From the IMG/VR virus record IMGVR_UViG_3300013132_000156, positions 1-31,966 of that record: DNA of 31,966 nucleotides; one strand, 5' to 3'. The position numbers and the translations under genes were made by a program. Source of the stretch: a virus. Of the stretch, positions 1-29,714 are shown piece by piece. The first letter of the stretch is position 1, and each line of letters starts with the position of its first letter. The notes beneath the pieces were generated by a model. That model was not told the DNA's origin. It made no database searches and saw only the letters and a program-made list of their open reading frames with translations.

Positions 1-29
1 CCAGAACGCGTTTTTGTGCGGCCATCTAG
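1..29 (+). CDS. Possible 3' end of the fibre-like gene cut at the right edge
   Basis: If the window is circular, the open frame of the gene starting at 31723 continues across the junction (last base of the window plus the first two give a Thr codon) and reads TRTRFCAAI before a TAG at 27-29. The terminase small subunit gene then starts 27 bases later behind a TTAGGA ribosome binding site, a normal gene junction. The frame match is seen directly; circularity is inferred, and a stop this early could also occur by chance. Confidence 0.35.
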
Positions 30-56
30 GTAATTTGGGAAACTTAGGACGATAAC

Positions 57-476: not shown

Positions 477-496
477 GCGATCAACGCGCCAGCAAT

Positions 497-2014: not shown

Positions 2015-3852
2015 CGATCATCGAGCGCGTCATGAGCTACCTGTCCGGCACGCGCTCCGAGCAGCGCGCGGCCAGCACGACCCAGGTGTGGCGTGACCCG
2101 GCGTTGACGATGTTTTTCGGCGGCGCGGTCAGCAATGCCGGCACCAGTGTATCGGCCGACACGGCCGCTAATTACAGCCCGTTCTGGCAGGCGGTGCGCC
2201 TGATCTCCGAGACGATCGCCTCGTTGCCGATCCATGTGTATCGCAAGGTCGGCGACAGTCGCGTGATCATCGACGACATCGGCGTCGGTGACATGCTGAG
2301 GATCGCTCCAAACTCCGAGATGTCGGCCATGCAGTTCAGGGCGTCATGGATCACGCACGCCCTCATCCATGGCAACGGATACGCCGAGATCGAGCGTGAC
2401 ACGCTCGGGCGCCCGACCCGGATCTGGCTGCTGAATCCTACCTCGATCAGCGTCGAGCGAGCCAGTGACTCGAGCATCATCTACGGCTACCAGATGACCG
2501 GCGGCCAGCGCATCTACCTGCCGGCCGATGATGTCCTGCACCTGCCCGGCCCTGGCACGGACGGGGTCGTCGGCCTGTCGATCATCCGGCAAGCTCGCCA
2601 GGCGATCGGCCTCGGCCTCGCCGCCGAGCAGTTCGGCTCGCAATTTTTCGGGAGCGGCGGGCGCCCCTCGGGCGTGCTGGAGCATCCCGGCCGACTCAGT
2701 GACGATGCGCGGGCTCGACTCCGCGGTGATTGGGAACGCCTGCATGCCGGCATAGACAACGCCCATCGGGTCGCAATCCTCGAGGAGGGCATGAAATGGT
2801 CGACGACCAGCATCCCTCCTGACGACGCGCAGTTCCTGCAGACGAGAAAGTTCCAGATCGAGGAGATCGCCCGCTGGTTTAATCTGCCGCTCAGCAAGCT
2901 GCGATCTCCCGAGTCGAGCTCGTACAACTCGCTCGAGCAGGAGAACCTCGCGTTCCTGTCGGAGACCCTGCGCCCATGGCTTGTGCGCATCGAGCAGGAG
3001 ATCCGCCGCAAGCTGTTGGATGATCCCTCGACCTATGTCGAGCACAAGGTCGAGGGATTGTTGCGCACCGACATCTCGGCGCGATACAGCGCCTACTCGA
3101 TCGGTCGACAGTGGGGATGGCTCAGCGTCAACGAGATCCGCGCCCTCGAGGGACTCGACCCCGTCGATGGTGGCGATATTTACCTCAGTCCGCTGAACAT
3201 GACACCGATCACGGCGAATACAGAGCAGGCGCCAGTCGTCGCGAATCCCGAGGTCTCGCCCGTCACGCAGGCTCCTGCAGTCGATGTGGCCGCCACGGCG
3301 CTCAATGGCGCGCAGGTCACATCGCTCCTCGAGATCGTGACGCAGGCAAGCCAGGGGCTGATCACGATTGACACGGCCAAGGCGTTGGTGGCGGCCGCGT
3401 TCCCGATGCTGTCGCAGCAAACTGTCGACGCGATATTCGCGCGCATGATCATCGCGCCAGCGCCCGCACCAACTCCCGCACCGCAGGCCGCGAGCCTGCG
3501 CGCCGTGCCGGAAAAATACGCCGACATCTCGTTCAGTCCGCCGCAGGGCGTGCGCGAGGCGCTGCGCCGCGGTCTCGACCTGCACGATCAGGGATTCAGC
3601 GGTGACGGCCTGCAGGCCGACACAGTCGCATGGGCGAGTCGCATGGCATCGGGCGAGCCGGCCAGCCCCGAGAAGATCGTCGCCATGCGCGCCTGGCATG
3701 CGCGCCATGCCAGTGACAAGAAGCCCGGATGGGACGATCCGCCGACTCCCGGCTATGTCGCGTTCCTCTTGTGGGGCGGTGCCCCTGGCGTGACATGGTC
3801 GGAGACGATCGCGGCCCGCATGGAGCGGGCTGATGAGGAGGCAGGCTCATGA
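2011..3852 (+). CDS. Portal protein, HK97-type, with extra C-terminal domain
   Basis: 613-residue product. The first 430 residues match the HK97-type phage portal pattern: YSPFWQAVRLISETIASLPIH near residue 55, HGNGYAEIERD, the LPADDVLHLPGPGTDGVVGLS stretch, IARWFNLPLSKLR, and SLEQENLAFLSETLRPWLVRIEQEI. This protein forms the dodecameric ring through which DNA enters the head. After a Pro/Ala linker (APAPTPAPQ, about residue 488) there is a further domain of about 110 residues with REALRRGLDLHDQG, a KIVAMRAWHARHASDKKPGWDDPP stretch and FLLWGGAPG. I have seen this RRGL...RHA...LLWGG pattern in other phage structural proteins but cannot name it; as a fusion on a portal it is unusual. ATGA overlaps both neighbours, so it is translationally coupled to terL and the protease. 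Confidence 0.95.
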   Translation: MTIIERVMSYLSGTRSEQRAASTTQVWRDPALTMFFGGAVSNAGTSVSADTAANYSPFWQAVRLISETIASLPIHVYRKVGDSRVIIDDIGVGDMLRIAPNSEMSAMQFRASWITHALIHGNGYAEIERDTLGRPTRIWLLNPTSISVERASDSSIIYGYQMTGGQRIYLPADDVLHLPGPGTDGVVGLSIIRQARQAIGLGLAAEQFGSQFFGSGGRPSGVLEHPGRLSDDARARLRGDWERLHAGIDNAHRVAILEEGMKWSTTSIPPDDAQFLQTRKFQIEEIARWFNLPLSKLRSPESSSYNSLEQENLAFLSETLRPWLVRIEQEIRRKLLDDPSTYVEHKVEGLLRTDISARYSAYSIGRQWGWLSVNEIRALEGLDPVDGGDIYLSPLNMTPITANTEQAPVVANPEVSPVTQAPAVDVAATALNGAQVTSLLEIVTQASQGLITIDTAKALVAAAFPMLSQQTVDAIFARMIIAPAPAPTPAPQAASLRAVPEKYADISFSPPQGVREALRRGLDLHDQGFSGDGLQADTVAWASRMASGEPASPEKIVAMRAWHARHASDKKPGWDDPPTPGYVAFLLWGGAPGVTWSETIAARMERADEEAGS

Positions 3853-4412
3853 TCATCGAGAGACGCGCATCCGGATCGCTGTCGAGCACGGCCGGCAAGC
3901 TGGTCGGGTATGCCAGCGTCTACGGTCCGCTCTCCGAGGATCTCGGCGGATTCCGGGAGCGGATCGCGGCGGGAGCATTCCAGCGCACACTCGACTCGCG
4001 ATCTGATGTCCGTGCCCTGGTGAATCATGACTCGACCCTCGTCCTCGGGCGCAGGTCGGCCGGGACGCTCAGCCTGACCAGCGACTCGACCGGCCTGCGC
4101 GTCGAGATCGACCCGCCAAACACGAGCTACGCGAACGACCTCAAGGAGCTCATCGGCCGCGGTGATGTGAGCCAGATGTCGTTCGGATTTTTTGTCAATC
4201 GTGACGAGTGGATCATCGAGAACGAGGCCCGAGTCCGGATCGTGCATGATGTCGATCTCATCGAGGTCAGCGTCGTCACGATCCCGGCGTATCCGGACAC
4301 CACGATCGCGCTGCGCTCGCGTGATCGCTGGGAGCGGGAGCAGGAGCTCCAGCGGCATCTACGCGAGCGCAGGATCCGAGTCATCGAGCTCTGCAGGAGG
4401 AGGACGAGATGA
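3849..4412 (+). CDS. Prohead protease (HK97 gp4-like, U35/S78)
   Basis: 187-residue capsid maturation protease. Seen: LVGYASVYGPLSEDLGGFRE at the N-terminus, the catalytic-type His in ALVNHDSTLVLGR (about residue 61), the catalytic Ser in DVSQMSFGFFV (about residue 113), and LIEVSVVTIPAYPDT near residue 155, all hallmarks of the HK97 prohead protease family. It cleaves the scaffolding (delta) domain from the capsid protein inside the prohead and itself. It sits between portal and capsid in the canonical order and overlaps both by ATGA. The C-terminus is very Arg-rich. Confidence 0.95.
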   Translation: MIIERRASGSLSSTAGKLVGYASVYGPLSEDLGGFRERIAAGAFQRTLDSRSDVRALVNHDSTLVLGRRSAGTLSLTSDSTGLRVEIDPPNTSYANDLKELIGRGDVSQMSFGFFVNRDEWIIENEARVRIVHDVDLIEVSVVTIPAYPDTTIALRSRDRWEREQELQRHLRERRIRVIELCRRRTR

Positions 4413-5737
4413 ACGAACAGCAGAAGCTCCGCGCCGAGCGCACTCGGCTCGAGGGAGAAGTCAAGGCGCTGCACGCCGGCGCTGAAAACCGCGCCTGGAC
4501 TCCCGAGGAGGAGGCCAAGGTCAACGCCATCGAATCACAGATCCAGAACATCGATTTTCGCCTCATGGCGATCGAGGAGGCCATGGATATGCCGGCCGAG
4601 CAACCCGAGGAGAGCAGCATCGAAAAGAACGGACTGCAGGAGACGATCCAGGCCGAGGTCCGCAAGGCCATCGACAGCCTTGCCGTTTCAAGGAGGCGCA
4701 TCATGCCAGCACCGATGGTCGTGTCCGATCTCGATGACAAGCGCGCCGAGCGCGAACGAGGCCTCGCCCTGCGCGCCTGGTTCCTCGGCAACGACGCGAA
4801 CACCGAGGAGGTCAATGCCGCTCGCAAGCTCGGCCTCAACCTGCGCAACAACAAGCTCACCCTGCGCGCGCAGTCGACCACCACGACCGCGGGCGGATAC
4901 ACGATCCCCCAGGGATTCCTCGCCGAGCTCGAGTCGCGGCGACTTTTTTACAACACCTTGCGAGGCGTCGCGCGTGTGATCCGCACCGAGACCGGCAACA
5001 CCCTGCCGTTCCCGACAACGGACGACACGAGCAATGTCGCCAACCTGACGGCCGAGAACACGGCGCCATCGGCCACCGATGTCGTGTTCGGCCAGGTGAG
5101 CCTCGGCGCCTACAAGCTCGACAGCCTCGTGCAGGTCAGCAACGAGCTGCTGCGCGACAGTGGACTCGACCTCGCCAGCGAGATCGCCTCGATCCTCGGT
5201 GAGCGAATCGGGCGCAAGGAAGCCGCTTTCTTCGCGACCGGCACCGGCTCGAGCCAGCCTCAGGGCGTTGTCACCGGCGCGTCCGCCGGTGCGACCGCGG
5301 CCACCACGACGACCATTACCCTGGCGAACATCATGTCGCTGGTGAACTCGCTGGACTTCGCATACCAGCAGGGCGCCTCGTTCATGATGCACCAGAGCGT
5401 GTGGAACACGATCCTGCAGCTGGCCGACAGCCAGAACAGGCCGCTGTTCCTCGACCTCCTCAACGGCAACGGCCCGAGACTTCTCGGATACCCGGTGGTC
5501 GTCAATAACAACATGGCGAGCTCGATCGCCTCGGCGAACGTCACCATGCTGTTCGGCGACTTCTCGAAGTATTACATTCGCCAGGCGGGCGACCTCGAGG
5601 TCATCCGCATGGACGAGCGGTACGCCGACGCCTACCAGACGGGCTTTATGGTCGTGGAGCGGGTCGACGCCAAGGTCGCGCAGAGCAACGCGATCAAGAA
5701 GCTCACCCAGCCAACTGCCACCACCACCACCACCTGA
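4409..5737 (+). CDS. Major capsid protein, HK97 fold, with delta domain
   Basis: 442-residue HK97 gp5-like capsid protein. Residues 1 to about 110 are charged and helical (EQQKLRAERTRLEGEVKAL...), matching the N-terminal delta domain that acts as internal scaffold and is removed by the neighbouring protease. The shell domain starts around TTTTAGGYTIPQGFLAEL (residue 155) and shows FPTTDDTSNVANLTAEN, LVQVSNELLRDS, GERIGRKEAAFF, GTGSSQPQGVV, and the C-terminal YADAYQTGFMVVERVDAKV typical of the family. A good AGGAGGA ribosome site precedes the start. The last residues are a short Thr tail (TATTTTT), which recalls the much longer Thr tracts in the tail proteins downstream. A separate scaffold gene is neither seen nor needed. 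Confidence 0.97.
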   Translation: MNEQQKLRAERTRLEGEVKALHAGAENRAWTPEEEAKVNAIESQIQNIDFRLMAIEEAMDMPAEQPEESSIEKNGLQETIQAEVRKAIDSLAVSRRRIMPAPMVVSDLDDKRAERERGLALRAWFLGNDANTEEVNAARKLGLNLRNNKLTLRAQSTTTTAGGYTIPQGFLAELESRRLFYNTLRGVARVIRTETGNTLPFPTTDDTSNVANLTAENTAPSATDVVFGQVSLGAYKLDSLVQVSNELLRDSGLDLASEIASILGERIGRKEAAFFATGTGSSQPQGVVTGASAGATAATTTTITLANIMSLVNSLDFAYQQGASFMMHQSVWNTILQLADSQNRPLFLDLLNGNGPRLLGYPVVVNNNMASSIASANVTMLFGDFSKYYIRQAGDLEVIRMDERYADAYQTGFMVVERVDAKVAQSNAIKKLTQPTATTTTT

Positions 5738-7908: not shown

Positions 7909-10887
7909 ATGGCCAATGTTGCCAACATGGCGGTCAAGATCGGATTCGATGGCGCTGACGCGCTGCGCGGATCCGCTCAGATCAGCGATGCCGTGCTCAA
8001 GGTCGCGACCGCCGCCGACAAGGCGGCCAAGTCCATGAACGCCCTCGACCTGCAGAAGTTCCATAACGCCGAGGCGACACGCGCCGCCCGCATGCTGATG
8101 ACGGCCGCCGAGATCGAGAAAGACATCGCGCGCGAGAGACTGCAGGAGCGGATGAAAGGGCTTAACGCCCTGGAAAAGCAGGAGTTGCTGGCATCCGAGA
8201 AACTGCGATCACGCCTCATGAAAATGTCGGCGGCGGACATCGAGCGTGAGATGGCGATGACGAGGAGGGCCGAGCGCCTCAAGGGACTCAACGCCCTCGA
8301 GCGCGAGGAGCTCATCGCTTCCGAGAAACTCAAGGCGCGTCTGGCTACCATGTCGGCGAGGGAGATCGAGAAGGACATCGCGGATCGCAGGATGCAGGAG
8401 CGTTTGAAGGGGCTGAACGCGCTCGAACGACAGGAGCTCATCGCGTCCGACAAGCTCAAACAAAAGCTCATGGGTATGTCGGCAGCACAGATCGAGCGCG
8501 AGTTGGCCAGCAATAGGATGCGCGAGCGCATGAAGGGTCTCAACGCCCTGGAACGCGAAGAGCTCGTCGCTGCGGAAAAGCTCAAGCAAAAGCTCATGAG
8601 TATGTCGGCAGCACAGATCGAGCGCGAGCTGGCTGCCAACCGAATGCGCGAACGCATGAAGGGACTCAACGCGCTGGAACGCGAGGAGCTCGTCGCTGCG
8701 GAAAAACTTAAGGCGCGTCTGACTACCATGTCGGCGACACAGATCGAGCGCGAGCTGGCCGCCAACAGGATGCGCGAACGCATGAAGGGATTGAACGCGC
8801 TCGAACGCGAGGAGCTCATCGCTGCCGAGCGGCTCAAGGCCAAGCGCATGCGCATGTCGGCCGACGAGATCCGAAACGAGATCGCCGCCGAGCAGGCCAA
8901 GGCGGCGGCCGCCAGGCGATTCGATGGACTCAACGCCCTCGAGAAGCAGAAACTGATGCGCGATGACGCGACTCGAGCCAGGCGCATGGGAATGACGGCG
9001 ACACAGATCGAGCGTGAGATCCAGTCGGAGCAGACACGCGAGCGGCTCAAGGGCATGAACGCCCTCGAGCGTCGTGAGTTCATCGAGGCCGAAAAGAAGC
9101 GCCAGCGCCGCATGCGCATGTCGGCCGAGCAGATACAGGCTGAGATCGCCGCCGAGGAGAAAGCGCGGCAGGTCGCGCCAAAGCAGAGCCTATTTGAGCG
9201 TGTCGGGATCAAGGGACTCGCCGATGCCAAGGCTGGTCTCGAGATGATCCGCGGCATCATGCAGACATTCGTGCTCGTGCCGGCGCAGGCCATGATCTCG
9301 ATCATGCGCATGGGATCCGAGCTGCAGAACATGCAGACGATCGCGCGAGGTCTCGAGACGCGTGTCGGTGGCGGGGCCGAGTCAATCGATCGCCTGCGCA
9401 AGATCTCGACCGGCACCGGCGCTCCCCTTGAGACGCTGAACAAGTCGATGTTGGAATTGTCGGCCTCGGGCATGAGCATCGAGGACGCGACGCGCGCTGT
9501 CGAGAAAACGGCCAACGCGATCACGGTTCTCGGTGGCACGGCCGAGGCCGCGGGTCTCGTCACGGGAGCGATCGGCTCCCTGCGCGAGAGTGCCATGGCG
9601 AGCGAGGGACCGCTGCGCCAATTGCAGGCATCGGGCCTGAATGTGTTCGGCGCCCTGCAGAAGGAGATCAGTCGAGCGACAGGTCAGGCAGTCTCTCTCG
9701 ATGAAGCGTTCACCATGCTGCGCGAGGGATCCGTCCTGTCGAGCACGGCGATCCGGGCGATATTCACGGCAAGCGAAGATGCGGCGGGCGCCGCCCAGCA
9801 GATAGGCGACTCATTCGGTGGACAATTGCAGAAGCTGTCGGCCGGGTTCTCCGACATGCTGCGCGAGCTCGGCCAGCAAGCCCTGAAACTGTTCGAGCCC
9901 GAAAAGGCGTTCGCCGCATTGCGCGGCGTGTTCGAGGGCATCATGGAGTCGGTGCGCGAGATCGCCGACGCGTTCGCTCCCGTCCTCGATCCGGCCGAGA
10001 AGGGCAAGCAGCTCAAGGATCTATTCGAGTCCGGCAAGGAGATCGGCAAAACTCTCGGCAAGGCGCTGATCGAGGCGGCCGCGACATTCAAGGAGTTGAT
10101 GACGGCGCTTCTCCCTGATCTCAAGACGATCCTCAAGGACATGCGCGGATTGACGCCAGGTCGGGCCGGACTGGCTGTCGCCAAGGGCGCGGCCGGGATC
10201 CCGTTTGAGTTCGGCAAGGACATCGGCATGCAGATCATGCGCGATATCGACAAGGGATTCGGTCTCGGCATCGCCCCGAATGGCAACCTCGCGCAGATCA
10301 TCAAGGAGACCGAGGCGCTCAAGGAAAAGCTCGGCGCCGGCAATTTCGAGGGCGGCGCCTCCGCCATGGGAGACTTCGGTGACGCAATCGAGGATGTCGA
10401 TGATGTCACCGAGCAGTTCGTCGCCGATCTCATCCGACAGACAGAGGAGATGCGTCAGGCTAATCAAACTGTCGAGCGCCTGCGCAAGGAGGCGCTGAAG
10501 AGCTCGATGACCGACGCCGAGAAGTTCGCCGAGATGATCCAGGCGATCGATGTGAAACTCAAGCAGGCGAGCGCAGCCAGTGAGGGCCAGCAGGCGCTCC
10601 TGCGCGAGGCGCTCGGCCGGCAGGTCGGCGCGCAGATCCAGTCGGCGATTCAGAAGTTCAGATCACAGCAGCAGGATCTCCCGAGCGCCCTGGTGGCAGG
10701 ATCGGCGGCCGAGGTCGAGGCTCGCATCCGTGCCGAGCGAGGCATGAAGACGAACGAGGAGGAGGTGCTGGCCGCGCTCGACGAACAGACACGACAGGGA
10801 CAGGAGCAGCTGCGCGCGCTCAACGAGCTGGTCGCCATCGCGGCGGCGAACGGCCGCGCGCCCGCGACGCTCGTCATGCCGAAATAG
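7909..10887 (+). CDS. Tape measure protein with nine 42-residue repeats
   Basis: 992-residue tail-length ruler. It starts MANVANMAVKIGFDGADALRGSAQ..., typical of tape measures (SAQISDAVLKVATAADKAAKSM). Residues 40-421 are nine consecutive highly charged helical repeats (see the repeat entry). A hydrophobic stretch follows (FVLVPAQAMISIMRMG, about residue 455), then the generic tape measure region with ETLNKSMLELSASGMSIEDA, AITVLGGTAEAAG, LGQQALKLFEPEKAF and a C-terminal coiled coil. It acts inside the tail tube during assembly and may help DNA pass the host envelope. Length suits a tail of roughly 150 nm if the usual 1.5 angstrom per residue holds. No peptidase or lysozyme domain was recognised. 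Confidence 0.96.
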   Translation: MANVANMAVKIGFDGADALRGSAQISDAVLKVATAADKAAKSMNALDLQKFHNAEATRAARMLMTAAEIEKDIARERLQERMKGLNALEKQELLASEKLRSRLMKMSAADIEREMAMTRRAERLKGLNALEREELIASEKLKARLATMSAREIEKDIADRRMQERLKGLNALERQELIASDKLKQKLMGMSAAQIERELASNRMRERMKGLNALEREELVAAEKLKQKLMSMSAAQIERELAANRMRERMKGLNALEREELVAAEKLKARLTTMSATQIERELAANRMRERMKGLNALEREELIAAERLKAKRMRMSADEIRNEIAAEQAKAAAARRFDGLNALEKQKLMRDDATRARRMGMTATQIEREIQSEQTRERLKGMNALERREFIEAEKKRQRRMRMSAEQIQAEIAAEEKARQVAPKQSLFERVGIKGLADAKAGLEMIRGIMQTFVLVPAQAMISIMRMGSELQNMQTIARGLETRVGGGAESIDRLRKISTGTGAPLETLNKSMLELSASGMSIEDATRAVEKTANAITVLGGTAEAAGLVTGAIGSLRESAMASEGPLRQLQASGLNVFGALQKEISRATGQAVSLDEAFTMLREGSVLSSTAIRAIFTASEDAAGAAQQIGDSFGGQLQKLSAGFSDMLRELGQQALKLFEPEKAFAALRGVFEGIMESVREIADAFAPVLDPAEKGKQLKDLFESGKEIGKTLGKALIEAAATFKELMTALLPDLKTILKDMRGLTPGRAGLAVAKGAAGIPFEFGKDIGMQIMRDIDKGFGLGIAPNGNLAQIIKETEALKEKLGAGNFEGGASAMGDFGDAIEDVDDVTEQFVADLIRQTEEMRQANQTVERLRKEALKSSMTDAEKFAEMIQAIDVKLKQASAASEGQQALLREALGRQVGAQIQSAIQKFRSQQQDLPSALVAGSAAEVEARIRAERGMKTNEEEVLAALDEQTRQGQEQLRALNELVAIAAANGRAPATLVMPK
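8026..9171 (+). repeat. Nine tandem 126-bp units coding 42-residue repeats in the tape measure
   Basis: Residues 40-421 of the tape measure divide into nine units, each starting with (K)GLNALE and containing MSA.QIE near position 26-31 and R..ER at the end. Units begin at residues 40, 82, 124, 166, 208, 250, 292, 338 and 380; eight are exactly 42 residues and the seventh is 46. 42 is six heptads, in keeping with a continuous coiled coil. Units 4 to 6 are close at DNA level as well (for example the shared stretch tcggcagcacagatcgagcg in units 4 and 5), suggesting recent duplication, while unit 1 is diverged. Confidence 0.95.
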
Positions 10888-11839: not shown

Positions 11840-12430
11840 ATGCCGGGATACCTGCTCGACGAGGACTCGATCGCTCGACTCGCGAAGATGTTGCGCGACT
11901 ACGAGCAGGGCACGCTGTTTGCTGCTGGTCAGACTGATCGCGATGATGCCGGCGAGTCCCCGGTCGTCCACTATGTCAGATGCACATCGTCGACGCCTAC
12001 TAGCGGCCTGTACCCTGGCGTCCTGCTGAGCTATGACGCAAGCAGCGGCACTTACTCCGATGTCGAGAATGTCCGTCTGCTCGAGATCAACGGGACAGTC
12101 CCGGTCGCGACATATCGGTATTTCGGACGATTCGCGGGCTATACCAGCGGCGGTGACACGGTCTACGCGATCTCGGCCGCGGCTCCCACAACGACGACAA
12201 CGACCACCACTACAACGACTCCAGCTCCGACTACCACGACCACGACGACCAGCACGACCACCAGCACGACGACGACTACCACCACGACAACGACTACCAC
12301 GACGACGAGCACGACGACGACGACGCCCGCACCCCTGTCGATCTCGGTCGTCACCGGGATCACATGCGAGGATGGCGTGATCACGCCCGTCTACACGACG
12401 ATCTGCATACCCGGCGGATACATCTGCTGA
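11840..12430 (+). CDS. Thr-rich virion protein (poly-Thr linker)
   Basis: 196-residue product. Residues 1-112 form a small domain (LLDEDSIARLAKMLRDYEQG; then YPGVLLSYDASSGTYSDVENV and VPVATYRYFGRFAGYTSGGD). Residues about 115-163 are almost pure Thr with a few Ser, Pro and Ala, then a C-terminal strand region LSISVVTGITCEDGVITP with three Cys at the end. Poly-Thr of this kind cannot be globular and is expected to be an extended stalk, a good substrate for O-glycosylation (inference). It follows the putative distal tail gene behind AGGAG and overlaps the next gene by one base (TGATG). The DNA of the Thr tract mixes acc, acg, act and aca codons rather than being one simple repeat. Confidence 0.8.
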   Translation: MPGYLLDEDSIARLAKMLRDYEQGTLFAAGQTDRDDAGESPVVHYVRCTSSTPTSGLYPGVLLSYDASSGTYSDVENVRLLEINGTVPVATYRYFGRFAGYTSGGDTVYAISAAAPTTTTTTTTTTTPAPTTTTTTTSTTTSTTTTTTTTTTTTTTSTTTTTPAPLSISVVTGITCEDGVITPVYTTICIPGGYIC

Positions 12431-13797
12431 TGGCCTGCACAGGGTTCTGTGAATGGTTCTGGAATGGCTCCTCATGGGAGCTGATCAGCGACACATGCTC
12501 GGAAGAATGCGAGCCATGCACGGCTCCGACCTACACGCCCGATGTTGAAACCTATGTGACGGTTCAATGTCTTGGAACGACTACTACCACGACGACGACG
12601 ACAGAAGATCCAAGCAGTACCACTACGACCACGACGACGACGACAGAAGAACCGACTACGACGACGACGACGACGACAGAAGAACCGACTACGACCACGA
12701 CGACGACGACAGAAGAACCGACTACGACCACGACGACGACGACAGAAGATCCAAGCAGTACCACTACGACCACGACGACGACGACAGAAGAACCGACTAC
12801 GACGACCACTAGCACGACTACGACAACAACTACGACCACTAGCACGACTACGACAACAACTACGACCACTAGCACGACTACGACAACAACTACGACCACT
12901 AGCACGACTACGACGCCATGCGAAAACATCTGCACATGGATCTGGCATGCTACTGAGCAGGAATGGATTCTCGAATTTGACCTATGCGAGGAGGGATGCG
13001 AATGTCCTCCAGCACCGACAGAGCCAGGGACGACAAACGGCGATTCGTCTGGTGGCTACTGCGTTCCCACCACAACGACCAGCACGACGACATCGACGAC
13101 CACGACTCCGGCCTGCGAATGCACCTGGCGATGGAACGCGACCAGCGAGACATGGCTCGTCATCAACCGCGGATGCAATCCGGAGAACGAGACCTGCGAT
13201 GGTGGCTGCTCGTATCCTCCAGATCCCGGCGAGGTCGACGGCGAGGAGACGACGACCGAGTGCGCTCCTCTCTACTGCTCCGATTGCTGCGGATCCGAGG
13301 ACTGCTGTCCCACCACGACGACGACCTCGACGACAAGCGGCTGTGGTTTCTGCATCTATATATGGTCCGAGGCGAGTCAATCATGGAGCCTGCTCGGCGG
13401 ATTTGAAGAGTGCAACCCTGGAGGTGAGGGCTGCGTATGCGGGCCTGCTCCGGCATATACGCCGCCCGGAGACGGAGTGACAGTCGTGGTCGATTGCGAA
13501 CTAGTCGGTCAGACACTTGCTCCCGAGGTGATGTCGGCCGAATCGACCAGCACGACTCCGCGCCCGCCGATCACGCCCGAGGCGCGGGCGATGCTGGTCG
13601 CCATTAAAACGAGGATCCGCCTGCCGTGCGCGCACCTCGGGCCCGAGCTCGAGACTCGCAGCTCGTGCGGATGCGGAAAGTCCTCGCTTCGGCACTCCTG
13701 CGGTATACTGGGCGAATGTCGAGTCTACGCGCCGAGGGCGACCGACCAGATCGCCCAATGCGTGAAGTGTCCGCACTACGAGGCGCCGCATGGCTGA
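12430..13797 (+). CDS. Mucin-like modular protein: Cys/Trp modules on Thr linkers
   Basis: 455-residue product; ATG 12430 overlaps the previous stop by one base. Four similar modules of about 50 residues (1-47, 164-211, 229-278, 305-356) share the plan C..W.W......W......C....C.CPP.P....G......C. They are joined by Thr linkers: a 113-residue tract (50-162, with EEP and EDPSS breaks) and shorter ones at 212-228 and 279-304. The end (about 395-455) is a separate Cys-rich domain (LPCAHLGPELETRSSCGCG, SLRHSCGILGECRVY, QCVKCPHY) that looks zinc-binding. No signal peptide. Likely a surface-exposed tail or adhesion protein with a long glycosylatable stalk. The last 8 bases overlap the glycosyltransferase gene, suggesting that the two work together. 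No named family is assigned. Confidence 0.85.
   Translation: MACTGFCEWFWNGSSWELISDTCSEECEPCTAPTYTPDVETYVTVQCLGTTTTTTTTTEDPSSTTTTTTTTTEEPTTTTTTTTEEPTTTTTTTTEEPTTTTTTTTEDPSSTTTTTTTTTEEPTTTTTSTTTTTTTTTSTTTTTTTTTSTTTTTTTTTSTTTTPCENICTWIWHATEQEWILEFDLCEEGCECPPAPTEPGTTNGDSSGGYCVPTTTTSTTTSTTTTPACECTWRWNATSETWLVINRGCNPENETCDGGCSYPPDPGEVDGEETTTECAPLYCSDCCGSEDCCPTTTTTSTTSGCGFCIYIWSEASQSWSLLGGFEECNPGGEGCVCGPAPAYTPPGDGVTVVVDCELVGQTLAPEVMSAESTSTTPRPPITPEARAMLVAIKTRIRLPCAHLGPELETRSSCGCGKSSLRHSCGILGECRVYAPRATDQIAQCVKCPHYEAPHG
12577..12915 (+). repeat. Poly-Thr coding repeat tract (11- and 10-residue periods)
   Basis: 113 codons, nearly all Thr. The first two thirds repeat an 11-residue unit (eight Thr plus EEP, 33 bp), with a larger block framed by EDPSS occurring twice. 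The last third repeats nine Thr plus Ser (30 bp). Such DNA is prone to slippage, so linker length may vary between relatives. Confidence 0.95.
12811..12914 (+). repeat. Three perfect 30-bp tandem copies plus a partial one
   Basis: Units at 12811-12840, 12841-12870 and 12871-12900 are identical, each coding Ser followed by nine Thr; 12901-12914 begins a fourth copy. Perfect identity points to recent expansion or strong homogenisation. Confidence 0.95.
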
Positions 13798-14665
13798 GCC
13801 GCTGCTGACGATCGGGATGGCGACATACGACGACCCGCAGGGCGTCTGGTGGACGCTGTCGAGCCTGCGACTTCATCATGTCGGCATCCATGATCCGCGG
13901 ATCGAGCTGCTCGTCATCAACGACCATCCCAAGGAGTGCCAGGATCTCGCGAACGCCTGCGCCAACGCGGGCGCGCGCCTCATCAGCAAGTCAAAAAATC
14001 TCGGCCCTGCGCACGCGAAAAACACGATCTGGGAGCAGGCGACCGGACAGTATGTCCTGATGCTCGACTGTCATGTCCTGCTCGGCAACGGATCGCTCAA
14101 GTACATCGTCGAGGCGATCAAGCAGGACATGATCGGCAAGGACATGTGGGTCGGGCCCTTGCTCAACGAGAGGGGCGGGATCATCGCGACCGAGCTCCTG
14201 CCTCAGCTGCGCGGCGAGTTCTTCGGGATCTGGCATGTCGCGGCCGATCAACCAAACAAGATCCGCGAGGTGCATGCGCACGGGAGCGCTTACGCTCTGA
14301 TGCGCCGCGATTGCTGGCCGGGATTCTCGGAACATTTTCGCGGATTCGCCGGAGAGGAAATCTATATCCATGAGAAGGTCCGGCGCGCCGGTGGCAAGGT
14401 GCTCTACCATCCGGCGCTGTCCTGGTCTCATCGGTTCTGTCGATTCGCGCCCGTGCCGTATTCGCTGACCATCAACGACAAGGCCCGCAACTACCTGATC
14501 GCGGCGCACGAGATGGGCTGGAATATAGGACAGTTCCAATCCTATTTCGCCAAGCGCCTGGCGCACGACCAGATGGTCGTCGTCGAGCGCGAGGTCGCCG
14601 CGATCTATCCTGACGCTTTCACTCGTGACTGCTCCGACATCCCGAGGTTCAGGGAGATCGACTGA
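13790..14665 (+). CDS. GT-A glycosyltransferase with DxH motif, GalNAc-T-like
   Basis: 291-residue glycosyltransferase of the GT-A (GT2-like) fold: N-terminal LTIGMATYDDPQGVWWTLSSL, acidic strand ELLVINDHP, then YVLMLDCHVLL with DCH at residues 93-95, and GFAGEEIYIHEKVRRAGG (185-202) followed by ALSWSHRF. The DxH in place of DxD, with a later GEE..., Gly-Gly and His-Arg-Phe, parallels the metal and donor-binding layout of polypeptide GalNAc-transferases (GT27: DSH, GGEN, VGHIFR). That parallel is from family knowledge; the donor sugar cannot be read from sequence. It is encoded directly after, and overlaps by 8 bases, the Thr-rich modular protein, so Thr residues of that stalk are the natural candidate acceptor. 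A cytoplasmic protein without signal or membrane segment. Confidence 0.9.
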   Translation: MAEPLLTIGMATYDDPQGVWWTLSSLRLHHVGIHDPRIELLVINDHPKECQDLANACANAGARLISKSKNLGPAHAKNTIWEQATGQYVLMLDCHVLLGNGSLKYIVEAIKQDMIGKDMWVGPLLNERGGIIATELLPQLRGEFFGIWHVAADQPNKIREVHAHGSAYALMRRDCWPGFSEHFRGFAGEEIYIHEKVRRAGGKVLYHPALSWSHRFCRFAPVPYSLTINDKARNYLIAAHEMGWNIGQFQSYFAKRLAHDQMVVVEREVAAIYPDAFTRDCSDIPRFREID

Positions 14666-14919: not shown

Positions 14920-15569
14920 TCTACCTGGTGCTGGCATGCTGCGCGCAGCTCACACTGCCGGCGGAGATCAGGGCGGAGCCTGGGACATTCGTCACGATCA
15001 CGGCCGATACCAAGGGCACGATCGTGCGATATGTGCCACTCGATGCCGGCCTGCAGGTCTTTCCGGCGCACCTGCTGGCCGACAAAAGGACTACTGTCGT
15101 ACTCTCACTCACGCCAGGTCGATATCGTGTCCTCGGATACACGGCCATCGATGGCAACCCCACCGAGCCCGCGGTCGTGTCGGTCGTGATCGGTGATCGG
15201 CCGACACCACCTGACCAGGTGCCCGATCATGCCGCGCTCCTGTCGGCCCTGTCCGGCATATGGGGCGGGCATGTCGAGCGCGACAAGGGCGCGAAACTCG
15301 ACGCCCTGATCGCGACCTATCGCGCCATCGAGTCGATCACGGCCGATGAGAAGATCGAGACCACCGACGCGCTGATGCGGGCCTGCGTCGACGCCCGCAA
15401 AAAGGCGGGCCTCGCTGATGACGCAATCCTGCCGATCAGGCAGAGAATCACCGAGGAGTGGACACGCGCCCTCGGTGACGCCGACGCGCCGATGACGCCC
15501 GAGCTGCGGGCCAAGGCGCGAGGCGTCGCGGTCAAGGTTCTCCGGGCACTGGAGGGACTGCGATCATGA
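14916..15569 (+). CDS. Secreted protein with beta domain and helical C-terminus
   Basis: 217 residues. ATG 14916 (ATGA overlap with the previous stop, GGAGG upstream) gives a short hydrophobic start, MIYLVLACCAQLTLPAEIRA, that looks like a signal peptide, possibly a lipoprotein through the Cys pair, though the box is not canonical. Residues about 22-85 read AEPGTFVTITADTKGTIVRY... RVLGYTAIDGNPTEP...VVIGD, an Ig- or fibronectin-like strand pattern I associate with Planctomycetota proteins. After a Pro-rich linker comes a helical domain (DHAALLSALSGIWGGHVERD to the end). Function unknown; position before the papain-like peptidase suggests a role at the envelope. Confidence 0.75.
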   Translation: MIYLVLACCAQLTLPAEIRAEPGTFVTITADTKGTIVRYVPLDAGLQVFPAHLLADKRTTVVLSLTPGRYRVLGYTAIDGNPTEPAVVSVVIGDRPTPPDQVPDHAALLSALSGIWGGHVERDKGAKLDALIATYRAIESITADEKIETTDALMRACVDARKKAGLADDAILPIRQRITEEWTRALGDADAPMTPELRAKARGVAVKVLRALEGLRS

Positions 15570-16456
15570 GTGACTGGTACACGCCGGGATGGATTGATGA
15601 TCCGGCCGCGGTCGAGGAGGTCGTGTCGACGCTGGTCGAGCCCGACATCTCGTCGACGCCGATCGGATCCGTCAGCGACCTGCCGGAGCGCGTGCATCTC
15701 TGGGCCGCGGCGCGCAAGGTTCTCGGCACGCTCCTGCCACCGCGCAATCAGGGGCGGGTCGGATCGTGCGTCGGATTCGGCACGGCTCGCGCGATCGAGT
15801 ACACGATGCTGTGCGAGATCGCGGCCGGAGAGCCCGAGGAGTTCGAGGCGCTGGCGGCCGAGGTGATCTACGCCGGCGCGCGAGTCGAGGTCGGCAATCG
15901 CAGGATCCGCGGCGATGGCGCGATCGGCGCGCATGCCGCCACATGGGCGCGCGACTGGGGCGTGCTGGCCAGGCAGAAGTATGGTGACATCGACCTCGGA
16001 TCCTACAGCGAGACACGAGCTCGCGAATGGGGAGATCAGGGCGTGCCCGACCAGCTCGAGGTCATTGCGAAAAATCATCCGGTGCGGCAGGTGACACGGG
16101 TCAAGACATGGCTCGACGCCAAGCGCGCCCTGGCGTCCGGATACGCGATCTCGATCTGCAGCAATCAGGGATTCGCGATGAGGCGGGACAGCAACGGCGT
16201 CGCGGCGTCGAACGCTCGATGGGCGCACTGCATGACTCTCTGCGGATACGATCGACTCGGACAGGACGAGATCGGGCGCATCGACAACTCGTGGGGACCG
16301 GACGCGCACACGGGCCCGGTCGGTGCCGGCAACCCCGGGCCCGAGGGATTCTACGCATACGACGAAGTGATCAATGGCATGCTGGCGTCAGGCGACGCCT
16401 GGATTTTCGCGAATGTCAACGGATTCGTGCGGAGGTCTCTACCATGGCTGATCTGA
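15566..16456 (+). CDS. Papain-like (C1A) cysteine peptidase
   Basis: 296-residue protein with a full papain-type active site: Gln62 and Cys68 in NQGRVGSCVGFGTARAIEY, His221 in RWAHCMTLCGYD, and Asn241 in RIDNSWGPD. The order Q-C-H-N and the spacing fit clan CA family C1A. No signal peptide or inhibitory propeptide is evident beyond about 55 leading residues. Phage copies could act in tail entry, on host surface protein layers, or in lysis; no conventional endolysin was recognised anywhere in the window, so a lytic role is worth considering. It starts in an ATGA overlap with the secreted protein and overlaps the next gene by 13 bases. Confidence 0.88.
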   Translation: MSDWYTPGWIDDPAAVEEVVSTLVEPDISSTPIGSVSDLPERVHLWAAARKVLGTLLPPRNQGRVGSCVGFGTARAIEYTMLCEIAAGEPEEFEALAAEVIYAGARVEVGNRRIRGDGAIGAHAATWARDWGVLARQKYGDIDLGSYSETRAREWGDQGVPDQLEVIAKNHPVRQVTRVKTWLDAKRALASGYAISICSNQGFAMRRDSNGVAASNARWAHCMTLCGYDRLGQDEIGRIDNSWGPDAHTGPVGAGNPGPEGFYAYDEVINGMLASGDAWIFANVNGFVRRSLPWLI

Positions 16457-16749
16457 TCGAGCACTATCAGCGAGTGCGCTCGCTCGCCCGCGGTCAGGAG
16501 AGCTGGACATCCTTGACGATGGCGGCCTGCCTAGCCGTGCAGGCGCAGGCGCTCCAGCACATGCACAGCGTCAAGGCCAGCAAGACGCCGCTCGGCGACG
16601 CGATCCCCGATCCGAAACCCTTGCGCGTGTGGGCCGAGGAGGTTCTCGACGACCTGCTGGCGCAACGGGATCCGACTCCCGAGGCGTGGCGCATCCTCGC
16701 CGAATACTGCGCCGACCGCATCCGTGTGCATGCGCTTGAGGCGTCCTGA
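16444..16749 (+). CDS. Hypothetical helical protein
   Basis: 101 residues, predicted mostly helical by eye (SLTMAACLAVQAQALQHMHS; PLRVWAEEVLDDLLAQRD; EAWRILAEYCADRIRVHALE). No signal, membrane segment or named motif. Start ATG 16444 follows GGAGG with about 8 bases and overlaps the peptidase gene by 13 bases; the stop overlaps the next start by one base. Coupled within the adhesion/glycosylation block, but its role is unknown. Confidence 0.75.
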   Translation: MADLIEHYQRVRSLARGQESWTSLTMAACLAVQAQALQHMHSVKASKTPLGDAIPDPKPLRVWAEEVLDDLLAQRDPTPEAWRILAEYCADRIRVHALEAS

Positions 16750-17483
16750 TGCTGCCGTTCGTGTCCTGCCTGTGCCCGACCTATGGCCGACCCGAATGCG
16801 TTGAGGAGGTGATCGAGTCGTTCCTGCGGCAGGATTATCGAGGGCAAAAGGAACTCATCGTCGTCAACGATCTCCATGATCAGCGACTGATCTACGATCA
16901 TCCCGAAGTGCGGGTCGTCAACGCCAAGGCGCGCGTGACGCCGCTCGGAGCGAAATTCAACGCGGTCGCATCGATGGCGCAGGGCGATGTGCTGTTCGTC
17001 TGGGAGGACGACGACATCTACCTGCCGCACCGGATCAGCTACTCGATCGACCACATGCAGCGCGGGATCTGGCACACGCCGATCGCATGGTACGAGGAGA
17101 GCCTCGGCGAGGTGATCCCGGCCCGCAACCTATTTCACGCCAACCTGGCGATCGAGCGTACCGCGTTCTGGTCGATCGGCGGATACGAGGAGTCGGACTG
17201 GCCGGGCATCGATACGCGACTATTCGAGTCGCTCAATCGCATTTATGGGAATGTCCACACTACGATATCGCATCACGAGGCGTACTACATTTACCGCTTC
17301 GGGACATCGGGACGATGTCACGCCAGCAACTGGATCAATGACGGAGAGACGAGCGCGCACGCCGAGCGCGTCGCTCACGATGATCTGCGATCGGGACGAC
17401 TGACCGCGGGCGACATCACGCTGCGTCCGCAGTGGCGACGGGATTATCTCGGGATGGTCGAGAGGGCGAGGGCGAAACTATGA
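16749..17483 (+). CDS. GT2-family glycosyltransferase
   Basis: 244-residue GT-A fold enzyme: FVSCLCPTYGRPECVEEVIESFLRQDYRG at the N-terminus (nucleotide-sugar binding start), KELIVVND, and LFVWEDDDIYLPHR with the acidic D87-D88-D89 metal site. Later HANLAIERTAFWSIGGYEESDW is the acceptor-side helix common in GT2 proteins. Unlike the enzyme at 13790 it has a conventional DDD site. It overlaps the following methyltransferase-like gene by ATGA. Together they could extend and cap a glycan begun by the first enzyme on the Thr-rich stalk, or modify the host surface; both are inference. Confidence 0.88.
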   Translation: MLPFVSCLCPTYGRPECVEEVIESFLRQDYRGQKELIVVNDLHDQRLIYDHPEVRVVNAKARVTPLGAKFNAVASMAQGDVLFVWEDDDIYLPHRISYSIDHMQRGIWHTPIAWYEESLGEVIPARNLFHANLAIERTAFWSIGGYEESDWPGIDTRLFESLNRIYGNVHTTISHHEAYYIYRFGTSGRCHASNWINDGETSAHAERVAHDDLRSGRLTAGDITLRPQWRRDYLGMVERARAKL

Positions 17484-18073
17484 CGATCGACGAGATGTAT
17501 CGTGTGCAGATCGACAGCCCCAGCGACATGCAGGGTCACCTGCTGACGCTGCGCGAGCTCGCCAGGGGATGCGAGCTCGTCGTCGAGCTCGGCGTGCGTG
17601 ACGGGGTCTCGACGATCGGGCTGCTCGCGGGTCGACCCTATGAGATGATCTCGGTGGACATCATGCCGAGCTCGTCACGGATGATGGACATCGCCGAGTC
17701 GGCTCGCGCAGAGGGTCTCCGCTGGAGATACCTGCAGTCCGACTCGCTCACTGTCGATCTGCCGGACGGGATCGGACTCCTGCTGATCGACACGATCCAT
17801 CGTCACGACCAGCTCGCCGCCGAGCTCGAGCGGCACGCGCCACGAGTCCTGCCAGGAGGCGCCATCGCAATGCACGACACGGTGACATTCGGCTCGGCCG
17901 ACGAGCCGATGTACTCGCACGCGTCACGACTGCTCCGTGCCGGCGAGCCATCAGGCCATGCCGGCCTGCGCCGGGCGATCACGACATTCATCGAGAATCA
18001 TCCGGACTGGATGATCGAGTCCGAGTACGACCACTGTCACGGACTGACAGTGATCCGGAGATCGGAGTCATGA
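17480..18073 (+). CDS. Class I SAM methyltransferase-like (CmcI/Methyltransf_24 type)
   Basis: 197 residues. Motif I VVELGVRDGVSTIGLLAG (glycine loop), then MISVDIMP as the acidic strand 2, GLLLIDTIHRHDQLAAELERH, and PGGAIAMHDTVTFG. This is the layout of the cephalosporin-hydroxylase-like / Methyltransf_24 group of class I methyltransferases, many of which act on sugars. It is coupled (ATGA) to the GT2 gene upstream and to the HNH gene downstream, so O-methylation of a glycan is a reasonable guess. Start is ATG 17480; upstream in-frame sequence belongs to the glycosyltransferase. Confidence 0.85.
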   Translation: MTIDEMYRVQIDSPSDMQGHLLTLRELARGCELVVELGVRDGVSTIGLLAGRPYEMISVDIMPSSSRMMDIAESARAEGLRWRYLQSDSLTVDLPDGIGLLLIDTIHRHDQLAAELERHAPRVLPGGAIAMHDTVTFGSADEPMYSHASRLLRAGEPSGHAGLRRAITTFIENHPDWMIESEYDHCHGLTVIRRSES

Positions 18074-20100: not shown

Positions 20101-20124
20101 GGATTCAGTCCTCAGGTTCGCATC
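20101..20124. repeat. 24-bp direct repeat, copy 1 (methyltransferase 3' end)
   Basis: Identical over 24 bases to 21305-21328, with different bases on both sides. This copy contains the stop codon of the methyltransferase gene (20112-20114). Confidence 0.95.
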
Positions 20125-21302
20125 ACATCAGAAAACATCGGCGAGTCTTGCCTGATCCGATTTTCGGCTAGGTTCGCATACTCCGGGTTGAGTTCGCACA
20201 GGATCGCATTCCGGCCTAACTGATCTGCCACCAGCCCCGTAGTGCCAGCGCCACCGAATGGATCAAGGACGGTGCATGGCACGGGATCGCCGCCGCACTC
20301 GCAGCCGGGACGCCAGCCGGTTGTTGTGCGTTTAAGCGTTTTCCCTCCGCTGTTCCATGATCCACGAACACCGTGGTCGATCATGTTGTCTCCCATAAGA
20401 GGATTTCCGTCCTCGTCGTATGCCTTGTTTCCCTTTATTACAGCAGCCCGGCGTCCATCAGGAGATTCAATGTCAACCACCCTCTCCCACGGCGTGCCGC
20501 ACGCGGGGCAGCATCCCTCCTCGCTGGTGCCGGCCTGGATGCACGGCTCTACCAGATCGGGCGGGAATGTGGCGAAGTGTGCGCCTGAGTATGGCCTAGT
20601 CGTGATCGTCCAGACGGAGCGACGATTGCGAGATGCAGTTGACATCGGCGTGGCATCCGGGCGTTCGTTTCCTGACGGATTACGCCCCATTGATTTAGCA
20701 CGCCCTCCATGTCCTTTTCCGTACTTAGTTGGTTTAACGCCGGTAACGGATATTTCATTTATCGCATCCGCATCGTAGAAATACCGATCGCTCTTGGTCA
20801 TCAAAAAAATGTACTCATGCGCCTTCGTGCAGCGGTCGGTCACGCTCTCGGGCATCGGGTTGGGCTTGTGCCAGATGATGTCCTGCCGCAGCCACCAGCC
20901 ATCGGCCTGCAAGGCGAATGCGACGCGCCATGGGATGCCGACGAGGTCTTTGGGCTTGAGACCGTGATTTTGTTTTCGACCAGTTTGTGCGACGCCATCA
21001 CGACACGGTCTGTAGAAATCTTGGCTTTCCCCGTTTCGGTTGCGAATCTCCGATTGGGCATAACTATCCCCCAGATTCAGCCATAGCGTCCCGTCATCCC
21101 GCAGCACCCGCCGCACTTCCCGAAACACTTCCACCATTTTGGAAACATAGGCTTCCGGCGTGTGCTCCAACCCGATCTGCCCATCGTGTCCGTAGTCACG
21201 AAGCCCCCAGTACGGTGGACTTGTCACGCAGCAATGCACGGATTGATCGGGCATTGCTTTCATCGACTCGACGCAATCGTTGACCAGTATCTTTACAGAC
21301 AT
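20112..21302 (-). CDS. DNA methyltransferase, beta-type amino (m4C/m6A)
   Basis: 396-residue DNA methylase of the N4/N6 family. Catalytic motif IV TSPPYWGLRDYG (SPPY at residues 28-31) comes before the SAM-binding motif I LDPFGGAGTTG (near residue 347), the order of beta-class enzymes. DGTLWLNLGDSY, ALQADGWWLRQDIIWHKPNPMPESV and HEYIFLMTKS are further family blocks. A Cys-rich insert (EEGCCPACGTPW ... GCECGG) suggests a bound zinc. No restriction partner is adjacent, so it is an orphan, likely protecting phage DNA. The whole gene sits between the two 24-bp direct repeats: its weak ribosome site is in one copy and its stop in the other, which points to insertion as a cassette. Target sequence unknown. 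Confidence 0.93.
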   Translation of the reverse strand: MSVKILVNDCVESMKAMPDQSVHCCVTSPPYWGLRDYGHDGQIGLEHTPEAYVSKMVEVFREVRRVLRDDGTLWLNLGDSYAQSEIRNRNGESQDFYRPCRDGVAQTGRKQNHGLKPKDLVGIPWRVAFALQADGWWLRQDIIWHKPNPMPESVTDRCTKAHEYIFLMTKSDRYFYDADAINEISVTGVKPTKYGKGHGGRAKSMGRNPSGNERPDATPMSTASRNRRSVWTITTRPYSGAHFATFPPDLVEPCIQAGTSEEGCCPACGTPWERVVDIESPDGRRAAVIKGNKAYDEDGNPLMGDNMIDHGVRGSWNSGGKTLKRTTTGWRPGCECGGDPVPCTVLDPFGGAGTTGLVADQLGRNAILCELNPEYANLAENRIRQDSPMFSDVMRT

Positions 21303-28732: not shown

Positions 28733-29346
28733 ATCTCGTCACGCTCGTCCAGCCCGCTGTCGAGCCCGTCACGCTGGCCGAGGCGAAAGCTCACCTACGC
28801 GTCGACAGCTCGGACGAGGACAGCACCATCTCGATGCTGATCACCGCGGCTCGGATCCATGTCGAGCGATACACGAGACGCAGTCTCGTCTACACGGCGC
28901 ATCGACTCCTGCTCGACGCCTGGCCATACGACATCGAACTCCCGAGATCGCCCGCGATCGTCGCGGCCGCAAACACGGTCACGGGGATCGCATACGCGAC
29001 ACCGCGGATCCGGTACTACGACGAGAACGGAGTCCAGCAGACGCTCACCTACGCGGCTGAGGACTTCGACAATCTGCTCGACGACAACCCGCCGCGCCTC
29101 GTGCTCTATCCTGACACGACATGGCCATCGTTGCAGACCGCGCTGCGAGGCGGGATCGAGATCGACTGGATCGCGGGATACGGTGCCGCGGCCGCATCCG
29201 TGCCGGCCCCGCTCAGGCTCATCATTCGCATGCTCGTGTCGCACTGGTTCGAGCAGCGTGAGGCGGTCGCTCCTGGCACGATGTCGACAGTCCCGATGGC
29301 GGTCGAGTCGATCCTGCTGGCGTATCAGGACGGGAGTCTCGGCTAA
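28729..29346 (+). CDS. Head-tail connector, HK97 gp6 / phiE125 gp8-like
   Basis: 205 residues from GTG 28729. VEPVTLAEAKAHLRVDSSDE and ISMLITAARIHVERYTRRSL are the classic start of gp6-like connectors; RLIIRMLVSHWFEQREAVAP and the VPMAVESILLAYQ end match too. It forms the ring below the portal. Its position is odd: in HK97-like phages it normally follows the capsid gene, but here it is on the far side of the terminase genes (about 7 kb away if circular, capsid to gp6 being otherwise 23 kb). Confidence 0.9.
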   Translation: MNLVTLVQPAVEPVTLAEAKAHLRVDSSDEDSTISMLITAARIHVERYTRRSLVYTAHRLLLDAWPYDIELPRSPAIVAAANTVTGIAYATPRIRYYDENGVQQTLTYAAEDFDNLLDDNPPRLVLYPDTTWPSLQTALRGGIEIDWIAGYGAAAASVPAPLRLIIRMLVSHWFEQREAVAPGTMSTVPMAVESILLAYQDGSLG

Positions 29347-29714
29347 TGGCACGGCGCACGCTGATCGGCGAGCTGCGCCACCGCATCGAGATCCAGTCCT
29401 CGAGCGAGTCGGCCGACTCATTCGGGCAGGATGTGCGCACCTGGTCGACATACGCGACCGTGTGGGCCAGCGTCGAGATGAGTGCCGGATCCGAGATCCA
29501 GGTCGCATCGTCACAGCAGGCGCTGTCTCCGTATCGTGTCATCATCCGGTATCGCGGAGATGTGCGCCCGTCGCATAGGATCATCTATGGCTCGCGCGTC
29601 CTCGAGGTCGTGAGCGTGATGGATGTGACCGGATATGGGACGCACGAGACGATCTCCTGTATCGAGTCGACGCCAGGCATGGTGACGACCAGCACGACCA
29701 CGACGGGAGCGTGA
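29346..29714 (+). CDS. Head-tail stopper/adaptor (SPP1 gp16-like)
   Basis: 122 residues. LIGELRHRIEIQSSSESADS, TWSTYATVWASVEMSAGSEI, YRVIIRYRGDVRPSHRIIYG and VLEVVSVMDV follow the phage head-tail joining family that seals the connector. It overlaps the gp6-like gene by one base. It ends in MVTTSTTTTGA, a short Thr tail like that of the capsid protein. Confidence 0.9.
   Translation: MARRTLIGELRHRIEIQSSSESADSFGQDVRTWSTYATVWASVEMSAGSEIQVASSQQALSPYRVIIRYRGDVRPSHRIIYGSRVLEVVSVMDVTGYGTHETISCIESTPGMVTTSTTTTGA

Follow-up and report, generated by a model that had tools for sequence, protein, structure and literature searches.

A virus record of 31,966 nucleotides (IMG/VR IMGVR_UViG_3300013132_000156), analysed here over its whole length and referred to as the window, encodes a candidate system for mucin-type O-glycosylation of the phage's own virion. 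The glycosyltransferase (GT) at its centre, the 13790-14665 product, is named GT1. With a probability of roughly 0.8, GT1 is a GT27/GT60-type polypeptide O-glycosyltransferase acting on the phage's own threonine (Thr)-rich virion proteins, the resulting glycan being extended and capped by further enzymes. The argument draws on the sequence and its motifs, the predicted fold, the coupling of the genes and statistical evidence of co-occurrence, the last of these in phages as well as in bacteria. The window harbors a siphophage-type structural block, with genes for the large terminase, portal, prohead protease, HK97-type major capsid, tape measure, connector and head completion proteins. The three genes of primary interest are the following:

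11840..12430, plus strand: putative virion-type protein of 196 amino acids whose C-terminal half includes a Thr-rich tract of 46 residues, proposed acceptor 1 (from the open reading frame (ORF), the tract and the homologues)
12430..13797, plus strand: fibre-like protein of 455 amino acids, start placed at ATG 12430, with four Cys/Trp modules, Thr linkers and a C-terminal Cys-rich domain, proposed acceptor 2 (modules recur in relatives)
13790..14665, plus strand: GT1, 291 amino acids, GT-A enzyme with DxH, proposed initiating protein-Thr O-glycosyltransferase (from motifs and modelled fold)

Motifs, predicted fold and family placement of GT1

The GT1 gene shares 8 bases with the gene before it, and its product displays the motifs D93-C94-H95, G188-E-E-I-Y-I-H-E-K, G201-G202 and S-H214-R-F (W-x-H-R-F). 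A preliminary description of this DNA had reported the GT-A gene with its overlap, the DCH at 93-95 and the GEE...HEK...GG...SHRF block, all of which are found as described. The DxD metal motif of GT2 enzymes is replaced by DxH in GT1. This DxH, a G-F-x-x-E-E block and a C-terminal H-x-F (H214) are invariant in 21 diverse homologues, and in their alignment E189-E190 stands where the xED motif has its Asp base. GT27 and GT60 also carry DxH for DxD, and both perform Ser/Thr polypeptide O-glycosylation; the metal is bound by the C-terminal His in GT27, while retaining families vary in the Asp base of xED (Taujale 2020, PMC7185993).

Foldseek searches were performed with two independent models. 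The model of the window enzyme, based on an alignment of 18 close relatives (predicted local distance difference test score, pLDDT, 80), retrieves GT27 structures at all ranks from 1 to 19. Its comparison with GT27 yields a Z of 20.1 (root-mean-square deviation, rmsd, 3.6 over 260 amino acids), as compared to 16.9 for B4GALNT1, the best of any other family, and 16.4 for both GlfT2 and chondroitin polymerase. The second model is that of a homologue with 29% identity to the window GT1 (L320; L-numbers designate retrieved loci or contigs), obtained from a diverse alignment with a pLDDT of 92.8. Its top 50 matches are all GT27, with a Z of 24.8 (rmsd 2.6, 253 amino acids) versus 18.2 for chondroitin polymerase. 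The nearest fold of the two predicted structures is GT27, above all other fold families, and the comparison against GT27 and GT2 proposed in the preliminary description has come out clearly on the side of GT27.

Sequence comparisons weigh in the other direction. The strongest Pfam match of GT1 is PF00535 (E 1.4e-11, 45 bits versus a gathering cutoff of 23.3), which places it in the GT2 superfamily at the level of sequence; the scan returned GT2-type models only, PF11397 (GT60) not being matched. In profile searches of the PDB, GT2 enzymes (TarP, AvpGT and chondroitin synthase) rank best over the N-terminal ~110 residues, and the alignments with GalNAc-T4 (E 0.013, profile positions 34-230) and GalNAc-T2 (E 0.097, positions 36-223) are non-significant. 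A single-sequence phmmer search against solved structures gave a weak GalNAc-T4 match (E 0.12), whose alignment pairs DCH with DCH and GEEIYIHEK...GGK...SHRF with GGENLELSF...GGK...GHVF. The Pfam and N-terminal profile results would suit an ordinary GT2-type enzyme that modifies polysaccharide of the host surface or sugars linked to lipid, for instance to keep other phages out, and that has a Thr-rich neighbour by chance. We consider this unlikely, as the fold places GT27 well above such enzymes and DxH replaces DxD in 21 of 21 aligned homologues; the genomic evidence below also bears on it. A clear match to lipid- or polysaccharide-directed GT2 enzymes, which the preliminary description held to be fatal to its proposal, was not returned by the fold search, although the N-terminal half of GT1 is GT2-like by sequence profile.

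GT1 therefore presents a mixed picture with regard to GT27. The closest fold, the DxH in place of DxD and the C-terminal His without an Asp base in xED are those of the family, but sequence similarity across the catalytic domain stays below significance, and the C-terminal R-type lectin domain of most members is lacking, the catalytic domain taking up all 291 residues. Judged from the models, GT1 probably works like a GT27/GT60 enzyme, yet it is not filed as a GT27 member because GT2 enzymes lead the sequence profiles and the GT27 alignments are non-significant. The GT27-like arrangement proposed initially is retained for fold and motifs, but neither for GT27 membership nor for N-acetylgalactosamine (GalNAc) as the sugar.

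Threonine-rich proteins and their linkage to glycosyltransferases in phages

The two adjacent proteins with long poly-Thr stalks seen in the preliminary description are indeed encoded at 11840 and 12430. In the former, the tract covers residues 117-162 and includes 40 Thr, with a longest run of 14; in the latter, the main tract covers residues 50-162 (~113 residues, 87 Thr) and shorter ones occur near 214-227 and 295-303. Both proteins peak at 27 Thr per 30-residue window over a background of 8.2% (P ~1e-26 for one window). Peptides such as APTTTTTTTTTPAP would be candidate acceptors of this type. The 12430 protein also contains four copies of a C..C.W.W....W module, CTGFCEWFWNGSSW and three similar ones, linked by Thr. 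Most relatives inspected possess two to six such modules, and the architecture of Cys/Trp modules with Thr linkers is also found in L002-L007, L032, L037, L039 and L471. In relatives whose DNA reaches the 11840-12430 region, the homologue likewise has a Thr tract. Two further structural proteins of the window end with Thr-rich tails:

4409..5737, plus strand: major capsid protein, C-terminus TATTTTT, possible minor acceptor
29346..29714, plus strand: head completion protein (PF05521), C-terminal tail TTSTTTTGA

These tails are not present in all relatives: that of the capsid is missing in L002 and others, and the head completion tail of relatives can be a longer poly-Thr, with up to 16 Thr. 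The Cys/Trp modules and both tails, as well as the second GT and the methyltransferase treated below, had been missed initially.

Tandem-repeat DNA partly underlies the Thr tracts, which counts against the proposed reading: repeat units of 30-33 bp and of 3 bp make up a large part of the second tract, including a 30-bp unit present in 3.8 perfect copies at 12802-12914, and slippage may shape the exact tract length. That the tracts are nothing but functionless, unmodified simple-repeat expansions is nevertheless highly improbable. All four Thr codons are used, and thus it is not one codon that slips; relatives whose GT1 identity is as low as 55-64% still have the tracts, which also recur in phages whose G+C ranges from 0.35 to 0.69; and the linkage to GTs described hereafter is seen for poly-Thr, not for poly-Ala.

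A tblastn search identified 48 IMG/VR loci encoding a GT1 relative. Thr-rich ORFs are found in the locus, mostly immediately upstream, in 34 of the 38 relatives with at least 2.3 kb of upstream DNA; many of these represent one siphophage lineage and are not independent. Other kinds of phages are nonetheless included, namely L032/L033 (contigs of 107-186 kb), L042, L045 and L049 (33% identity, G+C 0.69). The four exceptions are AT-rich phages, and runs of at least eight Thr codons exist elsewhere in two of their records. The reverse test consisted of picking viral contigs by a poly-Thr DNA pattern alone, then searching them with a GT1 profile, with poly-Ala as a control. GT1 homologues, mostly encoded by the next gene, were detected in 14 of 100 further Thr20 loci, 5 of 120 Thr12 loci and none of 120 poly-Ala loci (Fisher p versus poly-Ala of 9e-6 for Thr20 and 0.06 for Thr12 alone), with scores of 160-434 bits in 17 loci and of 45 and 64 bits in two. 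A similar result came from the next two genes, scanned blind with Pfam: GTs account for 15 of 98 genes after poly-Thr ORFs versus 0 of 99 after poly-Ala ORFs (p 1.6e-5). Twelve of these GTs are PF00535, one is Mannosyl_trans3, and two are GT60 enzymes (PF11397, E-values of 4e-43 and 1e-38, respectively) located one or two genes from the poly-Thr ORF:

L344:3348-4256, minus strand: phage GT60 enzyme
L389:3393-4289, plus strand: phage GT60 enzyme

The GT60-like genes of Xanthomonas phage XacN1 and Stenotrophomonas RAS14 show no poly-Thr linkage, and therefore a poly-Thr substrate is not claimed for all GT60-like phage genes. The co-occurrence with Thr tracts, which greatly exceeds that in controls, argues against an incidental neighbour of a polysaccharide- or lipid-directed enzyme.

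The linkage weakens in the viral set collected with a wide profile, where a Thr-rich ORF lies within 6 kb in just 7 of 71 cases and several of the homologues inspected adjoin DNA-replication genes. In several AT-rich large phages, GT1 homologues are flanked by primase or other non-virion genes and no Thr tract, which would favour an enzyme directed to polysaccharide or lipid-linked sugars. Among the larger records of the wide-profile set, 9 of 18 have no eight-Thr-codon run; poly-Thr runs are present at some position in the other 9 of 18, versus none of 18 poly-Ala records, whose total length is shorter. Because many wide-profile viral homologues have no nearby Thr tract, part of the superfamily probably uses different acceptors or acts at a distance. 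The initial proposal that the enzyme acts on the phage's own Thr stalks thus gains from fold and co-occurrence and is tempered by the large-phage homologues devoid of Thr neighbours. Likewise, the co-occurrence looked for holds in relatives, in the reverse search and in bacterial chromosomes, and is a strong, though not a universal, one.

Glycosylation of phage DNA has also to be considered, since some viruses encode GTs for DNA hypermodification (Pyle 2024, as cited in PMC12619734), and the window contains one DNA-modifying gene:

20112-21302: DNA methylase

This role is the least probable of those considered here: no base-hydroxymethylating gene was recognised among the window ORFs, the GT1 gene is coupled to virion-type genes, and bacterial homologues stand beside secreted-type Thr proteins.

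Other products are encoded after poly-Thr ORFs. Proteins with a crAss muzzle domain are among them, and a family of ~305 amino acids without Pfam match (LSAQPALDYYAWQIEV...FFHDADFVFTK) recurs directly 3' of these ORFs; its HDAD motif suggests another type of glycosyltransferase.

L085:4855-5769, L096:3681-4598, L106:2055-2984, L304:703-1617, L356:6935-7849 and L308:4452-5393: ~305-residue HDAD family

Indications about hosts are scarce. The window has no transfer RNA gene and thus gives no hint of this kind, and tblastn detects no GT1 relative in records of isolated phages, which therefore provide no direct host or laboratory phage. Contig L471, binned to Chloroflexota, encodes at 2-3775 a fibre protein with seven Cys/Trp modules and Thr linkers directly upstream of a GT1 homologue; it may represent a prophage and point to a host. 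A DUF1559-type protein (L048:6723-7673), of a type common in Planctomycetota, is encoded by a large, AT-rich phage possessing a GT1 homologue and is a possible host hint.

Bacterial homologues

A scan of bacterial genomes using close relatives was empty, but a wide profile gave 87 GT1-homologue loci, and a reading of the family as restricted to phages was dropped. Examples come from Hyphomicrobium, Bradyrhizobium, Desulfobulbaceae and Oricola, and the cultured species Labrys okinawensis and Rhodococcus erythropolis also encode a homologue. As wrong-frame artefacts inflate raw counts of Thr-rich ORFs in G+C-rich bacteria, a reversed-sequence control was added. A Thr-rich ORF is located at most 5 kb from the homologue in 41 of 74 loci, versus 6 of 74 in the control, and small ORFs combining a signal resembling that of the twin-arginine translocation (Tat) pathway with a Thr tail are found in 26 of 74 loci versus 0 of 74.

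The GT1 homologue is fused to PqqD in L405 and adjacent to it in L459, while some other bacterial homologues are fused to an HPr-kinase-like domain. PqqD domains bind peptides in the pathways of ribosomally synthesised and post-translationally modified peptides (RiPPs), and by analogy the PqqD fusion points to a polypeptide acceptor for the bacterial homologues. Such fusions would not be anticipated for an enzyme devoted to polysaccharides or lipid-linked sugars.

To note, small proteins that combine a Tat-like signal (RRKFLKIVAIGGVVTAIALPSRWMKPVVNSVVVPAHA...) with a C-terminal poly-Thr tail are encoded near GT1 homologues in L398, L400, L403-L405, L412, L416, L419, L436, L445 and L446, and PqqD, HPr-kinase-like or DUF6065 domains are fused or nearby in some of these loci. 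Such gene arrangements possibly represent an undescribed bacterial system of poly-Thr export and glycosylation.

Downstream enzymes, proposed pathway and known systems

Three genes downstream of GT1 complete the region:

15566-16456: homologue of papain-like cysteine proteases (PF00112), encoded between GT1 and the second GT
16749..17483, plus strand: second GT-A enzyme (PF00535) with WEDDD, proposed glycan extender
17480..18073, plus strand: methyltransferase, ATGA-coupled to the second GT (PF13578, Methyltransf_24, and a weaker match to RMNT_CmcI rhamnosyl O-methyltransferase), proposed glycan capper

A homologue of the second GT adjoins GT1 in the unrelated phages L032, L042, L045, L365, L376 and L378; methyltransferase homologues likewise stand beside GT1 in unrelated phages, giving clusters of GT1, second GT and methyltransferase, and GT1 and methyltransferase are fused into one ORF in L378, L385, L332, L340 and L314. 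Because the two enzymes adjoin GT1 and the methyltransferase can be fused to it, we infer a pathway in which the glycan is started by GT1, extended by the second GT and capped by the methyltransferase. Searches of solved structures with the second GT and with the methyltransferase named no substrate for either. A point against the proposed pathway is that L037 and L039-L041 encode GT1 and Thr proteins but neither a second GT nor a methyltransferase in the DNA covered, a gene content consistent with GT1 acting first. GT1 of L376 is fused to an N-terminal GNAT acetyltransferase. The protease gene is kept at the interval between GT1 and the second GT across the siphophage lineage, and elsewhere in the window the tape measure gene harbors about five tandem repeats of 126 bp (8224-8861).

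The mechanism that we infer covers catalysis, donor, acceptor, order of steps, virion location and role. GT1 would bind a nucleotide sugar, possibly the host uridine diphosphate (UDP)-N-acetylglucosamine (GlcNAc) or UDP-GalNAc, through a metal held by D93, H95 and H214, and would transfer the sugar, probably with retention, to Thr of the virion proteins encoded at 11840-13797. The glycan would then grow by at least one sugar through the second GT (16749) and be methylated by the methyltransferase (17480). The Cys/Trp modules would thereby be joined by stiff linkers coated with sugar, making a mucin-like virion fibre, which may provide protease resistance, adhesion, stiffness or shielding; the adhesion fibre put forward in the preliminary description is one such possible product.

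Of the known systems, GT27-driven mucin-type O-glycosylation shares with GT1 the GT-A fold (family Z as high as 24.8), the DxH, the C-terminal metal His without Asp base and a Thr/Ser-rich candidate acceptor. It differs in that GT1 is a catalytic domain only, without lectin domain, occurs in phages and bacteria, and has ~15% identity to GT27. GT60, which adds GlcNAc to Thr of Trypanosoma cruzi mucins (PMC3769586), shares the DxH, and GT60 proteins themselves lie near poly-Thr genes in L344 and L389; GT1, however, belongs to a different sequence family. As for PqqD-coupled, peptide-modifying RiPP enzymes, the likeness is confined to bacterial homologues: the phage GT1 has no PqqD, and its candidate acceptors are virion proteins, as against poly-Thr proteins with a Tat signal in the bacteria.

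Virion glycosylation by phage-encoded GTs is established in mycobacteriophages Che8 (gp110), Corndog (gp38) and Myrna (Freeman 2023, as cited in PMC12363180), the glycans being carried C-terminally by the capsid and tail tube proteins (PMC12619734). The Thr tails on the capsid and head completion C-termini of the window, which not all relatives have, may be comparable to these glycosylated C-termini. Che8 gp108-gp110 are clustered GT genes, and gp108 reads as a GT with a methyltransferase-like domain, reminiscent of the GT1-methyltransferase fusions. The Che8 proteins score below 2 bits with the GT1 profile, which they do not match, and the mycobacteriophage acceptors are capsid and tail tube rather than dedicated poly-Thr fibres. 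The novelty initially assigned to a pair of protein substrate and transferase in a phage is thus reduced by these unrelated enzymes; relative to known phage glycosylation, the new elements are the type of enzyme, candidate acceptors in the form of dedicated poly-Thr proteins, the broad range of phages concerned and the existence of a counterpart in bacteria. The literature searched, mostly outside subscription journals, yielded no paper joining GT27 with phages or poly-Thr with PqqD.

Mucin-type glycosylation has been studied as a eukaryotic process. The same pairing of poly-Thr and GT in many unrelated phages and in bacterial genomes suggests a widespread microbial mucin-like protein-sugar system. 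In its fullest form, to which we give slightly better than even odds, this would be a prokaryotic mucin-type O-glycosylation performed by a DxH GT-A family that is fold-related to GT27/GT60 and possibly near their root, acting on virion and Tat-exported poly-Thr proteins, with extension and methyl-capping. If true, this compact and widespread phage and bacterial counterpart would be a tractable model of poly-Thr tract modification, would supply small glycosyltransferases acting on proteins and would help to trace where GT27/GT60 came from. It would also be a likely explanation for the long Thr tracts of virus proteins, and the glycan-coated fibres it predicts could affect virion adsorption, stability or recognition.

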